From a bacterium (GTDB lineage: Bacteria; Planctomycetota; Planctomycetia; Planctomycetales; Planctomycetaceae), in NCBI GenBank assembly GCA_016125225.1, contig WGME01000034.1, forward strand, positions 62,001 through 126,000: DNA of 64,000 nucleotides, given 5' to 3'. This document shows, in pieces, positions 19,760 through 62,424 of this stretch (the stretch's first letter is position 1; the number at the start of each line of letters is the position of its first letter). A program made the position numbers and the translations under genes. The notes under the pieces are model-generated. The model worked only from the letters and a program-made list of their open reading frames with translations, was not told the DNA's origin and made no database searches.

Positions 19760-20074
19760 TTAGTAGGTCTGCAGTTCGCCGACGATCGGTTGGTCGCAGA
19801 CGATGCTGTCGGCTCGGTCGCAGAGGTCTTCCAGGTCGGTGAAGGTGCTGCCGTTGATGGCTCCCTTGCAACCTTTGGCCCCCTTCACTTCATAGGTCTG
19901 GTTGATCGAGCCGAAAGCCGAGGCGACGTCTTCCAGTTCCTGATTGATGGCGATCGAGACTTCGGACAGTCCGACGACCATGGCGAGGACGGCGATGGTG
20001 CCGACGAGTACGAGTTCAGCCGAGACGATGAAACCAGCGTCATCATTCCAGAGTTGGGTGGCGAGTGTGGTCAT
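19760..20074 (-). CDS. Pilin-like small membrane protein, tandem copy 2
   Basis: 104 residues, nearly identical over ~65 positions to the gene at 20277-20582. It has a short polar leader (MTTLATQLWNDDAG), then a hydrophobic helix (FIVSAELVLVGTIAVLAMVV). The mature part has a helix (NQELEDVASAFGSI) and KGCKGAINGSTFTDL with a conserved Cys. This resembles Flp/TadE-type pseudopilins, where prepilin peptidase cuts after Gly. Here the Glu is at +6 after that Gly rather than the usual +5, so the assignment is by resemblance. No tad or pil assembly genes are nearby. The C-terminal ~20 residues differ from copy 1. Confidence 0.7.
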   Translation of the reverse strand: MTTLATQLWNDDAGFIVSAELVLVGTIAVLAMVVGLSEVSIAINQELEDVASAFGSINQTYEVKGAKGCKGAINGSTFTDLEDLCDRADSIVCDQPIVGELQTY

Positions 20075-43821: not shown

Positions 43822-43984
43822 GGTCGCGCCCTGGCAAGGGGGGGGGTGAGGTCTGCTGCCGTACGAGATTCTACTGAGATCTCAAGGCCAGTCCAAGCTA
43901 GATCATGTTGAATCACCGCACGGGCGTGACAAGGGTACTGTGTGTTTGTGGGGTATGGCGGAATTGCCTAGGGGGAAGCAATCA

Positions 43985-59397: not shown

Positions 59398-59731
59398 GGG
59401 GACGTCCTCGGCAGGGGCAATACGGTGCGTGCGGGGCGGGTCGATCGATGGTTGCAGTACAAAACGGCACAATTTCAACCGTTTGCCACACCTATGACCA
59501 TAACAACGGTCCACACGCCGGGCAAGTAGCGCAGAGCTGGTCCTGTGACCACTTCGCTGAATTTTCCCTCAATCCGCTGCCGGTCCAGGTTTGCGCACCA
59601 TCGTCTGAAATTGGTGGGTTTTTTCTAAGTTGACCTGGGGTATTGGCTGCAGAATAATGCACATTCGTACCGGTTTTGTTGTCGTGGTTTCCGAAGGTCA
59701 TGCCCATTTCAATCCACACAGGAGTCCTGCC
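59398..59731. other. Divergent intergenic region with promoter for the HExxE gene
   Basis: 334 bp between the divergent propeller and HExxE-protein genes. The right part holds a good sigma-70 promoter, listed separately. No gene is seen. Confidence 0.55.
59630..59658 (+). promoter_or_regulatory. Sigma-70-type promoter
   Basis: TTGACC and AATAAT are separated by exactly 17 bp. The start of transcription would be near 59665, about 67 bases before the ATG at 59732. Confidence 0.7.
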
Positions 59732-60607
59732 ATGCTCATGTACCAGCTCGCGGTTGTCTCGCAAACGAAATCGCTGAAACTCAGCGAGGTTGTCAAAGTC
59801 AGCGCGGCCTTGCAGAAGCAGGTCTCCCGAGACTTTGGACCGATCTGGAGTGTCAACAGCACGGTTGATGCCTTTGATCGCCTGGAGGATGTCCCCATAG
59901 GTTATTGGCCGGTTATTGTCAGTGATAACATCCATCAGCCGGGAGCCGCCGGGGTTCATATGGACAAAGACGGTCAGCCCTTTGCCTTGGTGCAAATGTC
60001 TGAAGAATGGGCTTTAACAGCCAGTCACGAAGTGCTGGAAATGCTCGCGGACCCCTTTGGAAATCGCCTCATTGCCGGGCAGTCTCCCGACAAGACTCAG
60101 GGCCGGGTTGAGTTTCTGGTGGAAGTATGCGATCCCAGCGAGGCACGTGAGTTTGGGTACACACTTAACGGAATTCTGCTGTCTGATTTCTATACCCCCA
60201 AGTATTTTGACCCAGTCGTCGCGGCCGGGGTGCGATACAGCTTTACCGGAGCCATTACCAAACCACGGCAGGTCCTTAAAGGTGGGTACCTGAGCTGGCA
60301 CGATCCTGTGTCCGATCACTGGTTTCAGGAAACCTTCTTCCGCGGCGCGAAGTCGAGGATTCGCGATTTGGGTATCATGAGTGCTAAGAATGGTTCCTTC
60401 CGCTCGCAGATTGATATCAGTACCAATTTAGACAGTCTGCCCACATTGAAGGGCAAGAAAGTCGCTCGCGGCAGCCGTCGAACGTTGACCGCCGCGATGG
60501 TAGCCGAGGCGCCACTGGCGGACACTTACCAGGAAGCCACGGGTTCCCGAGCCAGCCGGCTGCAAAGTCAGATCGAGGCGTTGCTGGCCAGCGAAATCAA
60601 TCAGTAG
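59732..60607 (+). CDS. Protein with HEVLEMLADP (HExxE) motif, unknown function
   Basis: 291 residues from the ATG at 59732, with GGAG seven bases upstream. At about residue 99 the motif TASHEVLEMLADP recalls zinc metallopeptidase-like HExx[HE] sites; later Glu and Asp (EFLVEVCDPSEAREFGY) might complete a metal site. There is no signal peptide. The C-terminus is basic and helical. I recall similar motifs in hypothetical proteins elsewhere. It has its own promoter and a strong terminator, so it is monocistronic. Confidence 0.75.
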   Translation: MLMYQLAVVSQTKSLKLSEVVKVSAALQKQVSRDFGPIWSVNSTVDAFDRLEDVPIGYWPVIVSDNIHQPGAAGVHMDKDGQPFALVQMSEEWALTASHEVLEMLADPFGNRLIAGQSPDKTQGRVEFLVEVCDPSEAREFGYTLNGILLSDFYTPKYFDPVVAAGVRYSFTGAITKPRQVLKGGYLSWHDPVSDHWFQETFFRGAKSRIRDLGIMSAKNGSFRSQIDISTNLDSLPTLKGKKVARGSRRTLTAAMVAEAPLADTYQEATGSRASRLQSQIEALLASEINQ

Positions 60608-61980: not shown

Positions 61981-62252
61981 TCCTCGGCGGCTGAGATTTC
62001 GGGATGCTGGATTTTAGTCAGAATCCCCGGCGATCGGCGACCGTACACGTGGTCTCTGAAGCTTGCCCGATTTCGCAAACTTTGCCAAACCTTCATCGAA
62101 TGACCGAGATTTGGGCTTGTCAGACGCCGAAAATTGATTAAGGATTATGTTAGGGTTGGACAGACGTTGTCCAACGGACGAGTTCGCTGCGAGGTGATTG
62201 GCCCTGGCGGACCGATCGAAGCAGCATGACCAAGTAAGGAAGGAGGTGGTGA

Positions 62253-62294
62253 GTGGATTCTGACAGTAAACGCCAGCGAGGTGGCATCGTCTGA
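62253..62294 (+). CDS. 13-codon ORF with near-ideal Shine-Dalgarno
   Basis: GTG GAT TCT GAC ... codes MDSDSKRQRGGIV and then TGA. AAGGAGGTG ends at 62248, leaving five bases to the GTG; it is complementary to nine bases of the 16S 3' end. This is far stronger than other ribosome sites in the window. It may be a leader peptide of an attenuator, a tiny protein, or an anti-16S decoy. Confidence 0.45.
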   Translation: MDSDSKRQRGGIV

Positions 62295-62377
62295 CGACAG
62301 TCGACGGGCTGTCGACATCAGACAGCTACTGTCTCATCCGCGGATCATCTCTTTAGAGATCCCGATGTAGACTGCAA

Positions 62378-62424
62378 TCCCCCGCGGTGGGTCGCATGAC
62401 GATCTACCGCGGGGGACGTTTTTT
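62378..62424 (+). terminator. Strong Rho-independent terminator of the orphan unit
   Basis: Perfect 11-bp stem (TCCCCCGCGGT with ACCGCGGGGGA), with a possible inner TCG/CGA pair in the 17-nt loop, then CG and six T. The T-tract is on the plus strand, so it does not serve glmS. Confidence 0.9.

Follow-up and report, generated by a model that had tools for sequence, protein, structure and literature searches.

The window analysed here, a 64,000-nt stretch of contig WGME01000034.1 (positions 62,001 to 126,000, assembly GCA_016125225.1) from a bacterium of the Planctomycetaceae, carries a structured plus-strand element. It is flanked by two minus-strand genes, one matching PF03150 and predicted to encode a di-haem cytochrome c peroxidase, the other matching PF01380 and predicted to encode a SIS-domain protein, which would fit GlmS. 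An earlier note on this DNA, made from the sequence alone, had described an orphan transcription unit between a peroxidase gene and glmS, and the Pfam matches in the flanks bear out this setting. All features it claimed were located in the sequence (Table 1). The 7-bp hairpin, the 13-codon ORF and the terminator are present as described, the start codon of the ORF being GTG. The nine-base perfect Shine-Dalgarno sequence (SD), AAGGAGGTG, is also present but forms part of a longer SD inside a 14-nt run. Likewise, the three further hairpins exist, but several of their strands turned out to be parts of helices and of a pseudoknot involving the ORF. A 325-aa ORF without Pfam match was noted at positions 59630 to 60607 of the plus strand.

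Table 1. Features of the RNA copy in the window; positions are counted from the first letter of the window.
Feature	Position	Strand	Basis
-35-like hexamer TTGTCA of a predicted sigma70-type promoter with weak -10	62117-62122	+	hexamer scoring
Conserved core of the RNA, aligned full-length with models R1 and R2	62150-62331	+	R2, 141.7 bits
P1 hairpin, loop GACGT (62163-62167)	62155-62175	+	A1 covariation
7-bp hairpin TTGGACA/TGTCCAA	62156-62174	+	sequence
P2 hairpin, GCTGC/GCAGC and GATTGG/CCGATC, with CTGGCG (62204-62209) in the apical loop	62186-62225	+	A1
Extended SD, 14-nt run complementary (Watson-Crick and GU) to the 16S 3' tail	62237-62250	+	
Mini-ORF of 13 codons, starting with GTG and stopped by TGA, MDSDSKRQRGGIV	62253-62294	+	
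PK1 3' strand CGCCAG within the ORF, partner CTGGCG (62204-62209)	62271-62276	+	own-versus-swapped test
P3 5' strand (GGTGGC, GTC), last ORF codons, partner 62321-62330	62280-62291	+	
P4 hairpin GACAGTC-GACG-GGCTGTC directly after the stop	62296-62313	+	
P4 loop ACG, kiss with P1 loop CGT (62165-62167)	62304-62306	+	
P3 3' strand GACAGCTACT	62321-62330	+	A1 and A3 covariation
P5 hairpin	62335-62367	+	MFE fold
Intrinsic terminator, perfect 11-bp outer stem (62378-62416) and six T (62419-62424)	62378-62424	+	sequence, fold

The RNA (62153 to 62424) has a folding energy of -128 kcal/mol, whereas 200 dinucleotide shuffles average -96.05 kcal/mol (sd 5.16), which corresponds to a z-score of -6.19. 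A search of the locus against Rfam 15 at E-values up to 5 returned only mir-140 and HOTAIRM1_3, both far under the gathering threshold. At the gathering score nothing was found in the whole window, and in 20 divergent loci the search gave a single tRNA located away from the RNA, in agreement with the earlier statement that none of the standard RNAs fits. An identity with tmRNA or 6S RNA was rejected, as the locus is not matched by either covariance model and the source genome encodes its tmRNA and its 6S RNA elsewhere (contigs C27 and C4, respectively).

Positions 62150 to 62424 of the plus strand are one copy of an RNA family absent from Rfam. Using a 501-base query, blastn detected a match in six of 40 genomes, the source genome being among the six, and the copy of a relative used as query matched 64 of the 170 genomes of the Planctomycetaceae, again including the source genome. 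According to a covariance model built from 28 copies (R1), the RNA is present in 132/170 genomes of the family, 299/397 of the class and 74/392 of the phylum, counting matches at E ≤0.001. A broader model (R2; built from 59 copies, including 15 from other classes) matched 122/392 phylum genomes, 86 of which lie outside the class, with 15 of these being donors of R2 training copies; E-values of both models are rough, and strict filters were applied in the large scans. The conserved core was the sole R2 match at E up to 10 within positions 20000 to 64000 of the window, whose copy itself belongs to the training sets of both models. A strict pattern run on a collection of 84,980 species retrieved 22 records, all titled as planctomycetes and including Thalassoglobus neptunius, Blastopirellula, Fuerstiella and Planctomicrobium.

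Each listed carrier has one match, except for two genomes with two each. One of them (G154) has its copies about 1.9 kb apart (C25:64395-64577 and 66293-66477), the second being weaker, and in the other (G132) one of the two matches is partial and located at a contig end. When R2 was applied to 25 of the 38 genomes of the family missed by R1, four were matched. In genus g65 the model found no copy in any of the 11 genomes tested (among G134-G150), though relatives carry one. This absence reflects either loss or strong divergence, and thus the RNA does not appear to be indispensable everywhere.

The conserved fold was derived from a MAFFT alignment of 28 sequences (A1), which was not fitted to a structure. 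RNAalifold predicted the helices P1, P2, P3 and P4 from it, with changes on both sides in 19/32 pairs; P3 and P4 replaced a hairpin around the stop codon that had been considered previously. Including the pseudoknot and the kissing interaction described below, 92.1% of 1136 cells are paired and 25/41 pairs have changed on both sides. None of 500 shuffles was as high on any measure and slid controls paired at 25-52%, with the reservation that the shuffles, like the permutations used for the pseudoknot, ignore the relatedness of the copies and therefore give P values that are too small. Both-side changes were observed in 6/6 counted pairs of P1 (98.2% of cells paired) and in 10/10 pairs of P2 (90.2% and 87.0% for its two helices). 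Variation in P3 and P4 was mostly one-sided in A1: both-side changes occur in 2/9 pairs of P3, whose two parts are paired in 98.8% and 92.9% of cells, and in 1/7 pairs of P4. In a further alignment of 59 copies spanning the phylum (A3), which like A2 was fitted to R1, the respective values are 9/9 and 6/7, and 31/32 pairs of P1-P4 have changed on both sides.

The pseudoknot PK1 joins the loop of P2 with codons in the middle of the ORF. Its column pairing in A1 is weaker (76.2% and 70.7%). Scored copy by copy, own pairs averaged 12.27 over 105 copies, whereas swapped partners gave 11.28 (sd 0.20) and no more than 12.01 in 5000 permutations, in a test whose P2 loop finder misplaces the loop in some copies, a bias that runs against PK1. 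The pairing CTGGCG/CGCCAG of the window is replaced elsewhere by, for example, TTGGCA/TGCCAA, CTACAG/CTGTAG or ACGGC/GCCGT. Furthermore, the loops of P1 (CGY) and P4 (RCG) may form a kissing interaction, with which all 28 sequences of A1 are consistent. Within the class the raw parser found consistency in 136/146 copies. After hand checks the count was 138/142, the letters of four copies (G088, G170, G108, G024) being set from the sequence and four copies being left out (G103, unparsed; G109, consistent; G075 and G336, inconsistent). The forms CGC:GCG (106) and CGU:ACG (32) among these 142 copies are spread over 71 genera or lines. Only 8/19 copies from other classes are consistent with the kiss, which is thus regarded as a feature of the class. 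Taken together, the covariation supports P1, P2, P3, P4, PK1 and, within the class, the kiss, and it includes the compensatory stem changes that the earlier note had proposed to look for. GGA motifs of the CsrA type and a TadA-like loop of P1 were further candidate features considered on visual inspection.

The SD of this RNA is exceptional in its match to the 16S rRNA. The 16S rRNA genes of six genomes from the class and phylum (6/12 genomes searched by tail pattern) end in ...GGATCACCTCCTTTCTAAGG, and G003, a genome of the same family, has the identical 16 nt at its 16S end; the 16S rRNA gene of the source genome was not found in its assembly. The SD is complementary to all 16 nt of the tail in 66/166 copies and to at least 12 nt in 150/166, with a mean duplex energy of -25.6 kcal/mol (166 copies). 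For the window copy the duplex amounts to -22.6 kcal/mol, compared with a best value of -13.4 and a mean of -8.6 for the 34 window genes, which were called as long ORFs without annotation. Only one other run of at least 13 nt complementary to the tail, a G-run at 43837, was detected on the two strands of the window. As SDs longer than six nt were found to be less efficient in Escherichia coli, according to the part of that study cited here (PMC2176067), capture or slow clearance of the ribosome fits the long SD better than a high peptide output, and by analogy the ORF might be translated little.

A complement that spans the tail up to and beyond the anti-SD would also be expected of an RNA that guides or checks, by antisense pairing, the maturation of the 16S 3' end, the mature tail being tested by initiation. 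Such a role is highly improbable in our view, however, as no specific evidence points to it and the pairing of the ORF body would be needless.

In the window copy one strand of P5 (62342-62354, GGATCATCTCTTT) is similar to the 3' tail of the 16S rRNA (GGATCACCTCCTTT), and in the MFE fold, which does not allow pseudoknots, the SD (62240-62250) is hidden by 11 pairs with P5 (62344-62354). The likeness to the tail was higher in the copies of the family (7.12) than in shuffles (5.56), but in f2 and in other classes it did not exceed shuffles. The idea that P5 imitates the 16S tail within the molecule, and so masks the SD, was therefore rejected as a core feature of the RNA. Moreover, the duplex of the SD with the downstream sequence in the source genome (-13.2) is no better than that of shuffles (-15.8). 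The element GGATCACCTC of P5 is perfect in 15/166 copies, 13 of which are from genus g41, and the likeness of P5 to the tail is a lineage-specific feature.

An ORF of 10-18 codons was parsed in 165/166 copies, with 13 or 14 codons in 123 of them, by a script that favours the customary start position and an ORF of 9-18 codons, which makes the presence of the ORF partly a matter of construction; the remaining copy (G443) was mis-anchored and its ORF was read separately. Start codons in the class are GTG (123), TTG (22) and ATG (1) and in other classes GTG (8), TTG (6) and ATG (5); ATG is almost never used in the class (1/146) and often in other classes (5/19). The stop codons are TGA (60), TAG (58) and TAA (47). 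In all 146 class copies the start codon lies 15-18 nt from the SD index, the place preferred by the parser. The phase of the frame provides stronger evidence than the parsed presence of the ORF: start codon and P3 motif are separated by one of seven distances, each a multiple of three, in 132/132 measurable class copies, 14 of the 146 having been set aside because they lack the GGTG motif or belong to f2/f3. By contrast, the spacing after the stop codon occurs in all three phases (36/86/23). Stop codons differ and yet remain stop codons within 6/23 genera compared; in one of these (G092) the ORF has lost its stop codon and ends one codon later. In f2/f3 the structural motif lies in another phase, and the ORF still closes beside P4. 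An overlapping frame (34 codons in G084) was rejected as a candidate; it closes early in other copies, including that of the source genome.

That both the frame and its stop have been kept suggests that the ORF is translated, in addition to any binding of the ribosome. This bears on the possibility that the RNA is a decoy or hibernation RNA that sequesters 30S subunits by antisense pairing with the 16S tail, translation being incidental. For such a function the triplet phase, the stop codon and the NTG at fixed spacing would all be needless. Even though its SD duplex is far stronger than that of any of the window genes and PK1 lies just ahead of an initiating ribosome, as would suit a decoy, we consider this function quite unlikely.

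The conserved frame and stop together with the well-spaced SD may point to a functional micropeptide gene, whose 5' domain (P1 and P2) would be a riboswitch or another translational control element; an analogue with a structured 5' UTR ahead of a short ORF is reported, in the part of the source cited, for the cyanobacterial Downstream-peptide/yfr6 RNAs (PMC2864571). A core resembling C-S-S-Q-R-G-G recurs by eye in many peptides of the family, with PK1 and P3 covering much of it. However, codon changes within genera comprise 25 synonymous and 73 nonsynonymous events, i.e. a synonymous fraction of 0.255 compared with 0.232 expected (p 0.55) in a test of modest power (98 events, 95% interval 0.17-0.35). 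No ORF part showed a significant excess of synonymous change in this within-genus comparison, codons 2-5 giving 11 synonymous and 35 nonsynonymous events (p 0.23). Single codon changes lean to codon position 3 (33/72). The peptide is altered in f2/f3 (e.g. MCSSDNQRRLA) and replaced by dissimilar ones in other classes, and conserved structure is found inside and after the ORF and not just upstream of it. Purifying selection on the amino acids, which would mark a micropeptide gene, was thus not detected at the modest power available, and a micropeptide gene seems unlikely to us, if still worth bearing in mind. From the sequence comparison, the reading of the ORF seems to be conserved and its product to be free of detectable constraint, within the same modest power. 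The earlier suggestion of a small RNA with an embedded peptide hence holds for the reading frame, whereas no selection on the peptide could be detected. Its other suggestion, an RNA that titrates ribosomes, is conceivable given the extreme complement to the 16S tail, but the conserved frame and stop point to translation beyond mere binding. Overall, the interpretation given in the earlier note is partly supported.

With regard to the genomic context, the next long ORF downstream lies on the same strand in 57, on the opposite strand in 45 and is absent in four of 106 loci, where neighbours were called as long ORFs without annotation and a long ORF overlaps the RNA in 25 loci. In family f11, 7/8 loci have the downstream gene in the orientation of the RNA. 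Clustering of the proteins encoded within 3.5 kb of 66 copies did not reveal any gene that accompanies the RNA throughout the family. The largest cluster comprises 10 genomes, in which the gene occupies scattered places on both strands. In six genomes, belonging to five genera, the RNA is followed directly on its own strand by a gene that looks, on visual inspection, like one for a glycerophosphodiesterase (L037, L042, L044, L051, L057 and L041 in G017, G108, G107, G044, G088 and G089, respectively). As downstream genes occur on either strand, the RNA is not a cis-acting leader, which agrees with its earlier description as an orphan and not an ordinary attenuator. Although the arrangement, with hairpins and a terminator behind a short ORF, resembles an attenuator, the strand of the downstream gene is near random, the neighbours are unrelated, the next gene in the window is convergent, and the RNA could not be placed among such leaders. 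The attenuator is refuted as a general reading.

Promoter-like hexamers were found at similar places in 121 class copies, the best -35 element lying 36-43 nt upstream of P1 in 96 and the best -10 element 14-21 nt upstream in 95 of them, with a mean score of 8.15 (simple shuffles, 7.25); one genus contributes 17 near-identical copies to this set.

Among the matches listed in a search of the open-access (PMC) literature, no title or abstract opening describes such an RNA, and its absence from print is provisional. In the published motif table holding the Rhodopirellula-1 motif, the column with the entry 'y' is said to denote cis-regulation. The line of this table, the part of the source used here, lists the motif for Proteobacteria and Planctomycetes with the entry 'y' (PMC2864571, Weinberg 2010), which is at odds with an RNA that lacks any constant gene downstream. 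We provisionally regard the RNA family as new and not described in the literature searched and, going by the table listing, as possibly distinct from Rhodopirellula-1.

We presume, with a probability of about one half, that the locus encodes a regulatory RNA of some 270 nt that stands alone, acts in trans and captures ribosomes, whose transit along the ORF unfolds the RNA and yields the peptide as a by-product. The fold, the frame, the SD complement to the 16S tail, the stand-alone placement and the lack of detectable selection on the peptide emerge from the comparison of the copies; transcription, capture of the 30S subunit, the switch, and the trans effect with its target are what we infer from them. 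The RNA would be transcribed, usually from a single copy, from its own predicted promoter to its own predicted terminator. The SD would be located in a loop of the conserved fold, and in the window copy it could alternatively pair with P5. The ORF would itself be structural, its middle codons taking part in PK1 and its last codons in P3, with P1 and P4 presumably kissing in the class. A 30S subunit would be captured by the SD via nearly the whole 16S 3' tail, and the ribosome would initiate at GUG or UUG, read 10-18 codons and stop beside P4. Its transit would have to melt PK1, P3 and the kiss; the PK1 strand begins at +18 to +23 from the start codon in 37 of the 60 copies with at least five pairs. 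The RNA would accordingly alternate between a folded and a ribosome-occupied state, the balance of which would follow ribosome availability, and it may report or regulate this availability in trans. More tentatively, it could be a housekeeping-type ribosome-sensing RNA of the Planctomycetota, in which the ORF would be the moving part, each transit resetting the pseudoknotted fold and the supply of free ribosomes being coupled to the trans output. This wider role is conceivable, but we would sooner bet against it.

To our knowledge, few bacterial RNAs are kept in single copy over such distances, and the well-known single-copy RNAs (tmRNA, 6S, RNase P, SRP) proved to be central. Embedded in a pseudoknotted fold supported by covariation, the combination of a nearly full antisense of the 16S tail with a frame apparently selected for being read and not for what it encodes would, if true, provide a novel means of sensing or retaining ribosomes. 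It would do so in a phylum of which one species has few genes with an SD, according to the part of the report cited (PMC5397173).

Among known RNAs, 6S RNA (RF00013) is likewise single-copy, structured and widely distributed. In ribosome entrapment of the rpsO type a pseudoknot is formed at the initiation region; a pseudoknot in this position could also hold a bound 30S subunit in the planctomycete RNA, which differs in that no ribosomal protein gene is found at it. rnTrpL is an sRNA originating from the attenuator ahead of the trp genes and resembles the planctomycete RNA as a leader-type RNA with a short ORF. For rnTrpL/peTrpL of Sinorhizobium the part of the study cited states that the product can act in trans (PMC7298713). 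By contrast, no particular gene follows the planctomycete RNA, whose distribution extends across the phylum. The Downstream-peptide/yfr6 RNAs share with it a structured RNA and a short ORF in triplet phase; for these, the part of the paper cited speaks of conservation of the 5' UTR only and reports synonymous change (PMC2864571). The planctomycete fold, in contrast, takes in the ORF, and no synonymous excess was seen. tmRNA (RF00023) is widely distributed and pseudoknotted and contains a resident short ORF that is read by the ribosome to its stop codon, in all of which the planctomycete RNA resembles it, with the difference that in the latter translation would start at an SD followed by NTG.
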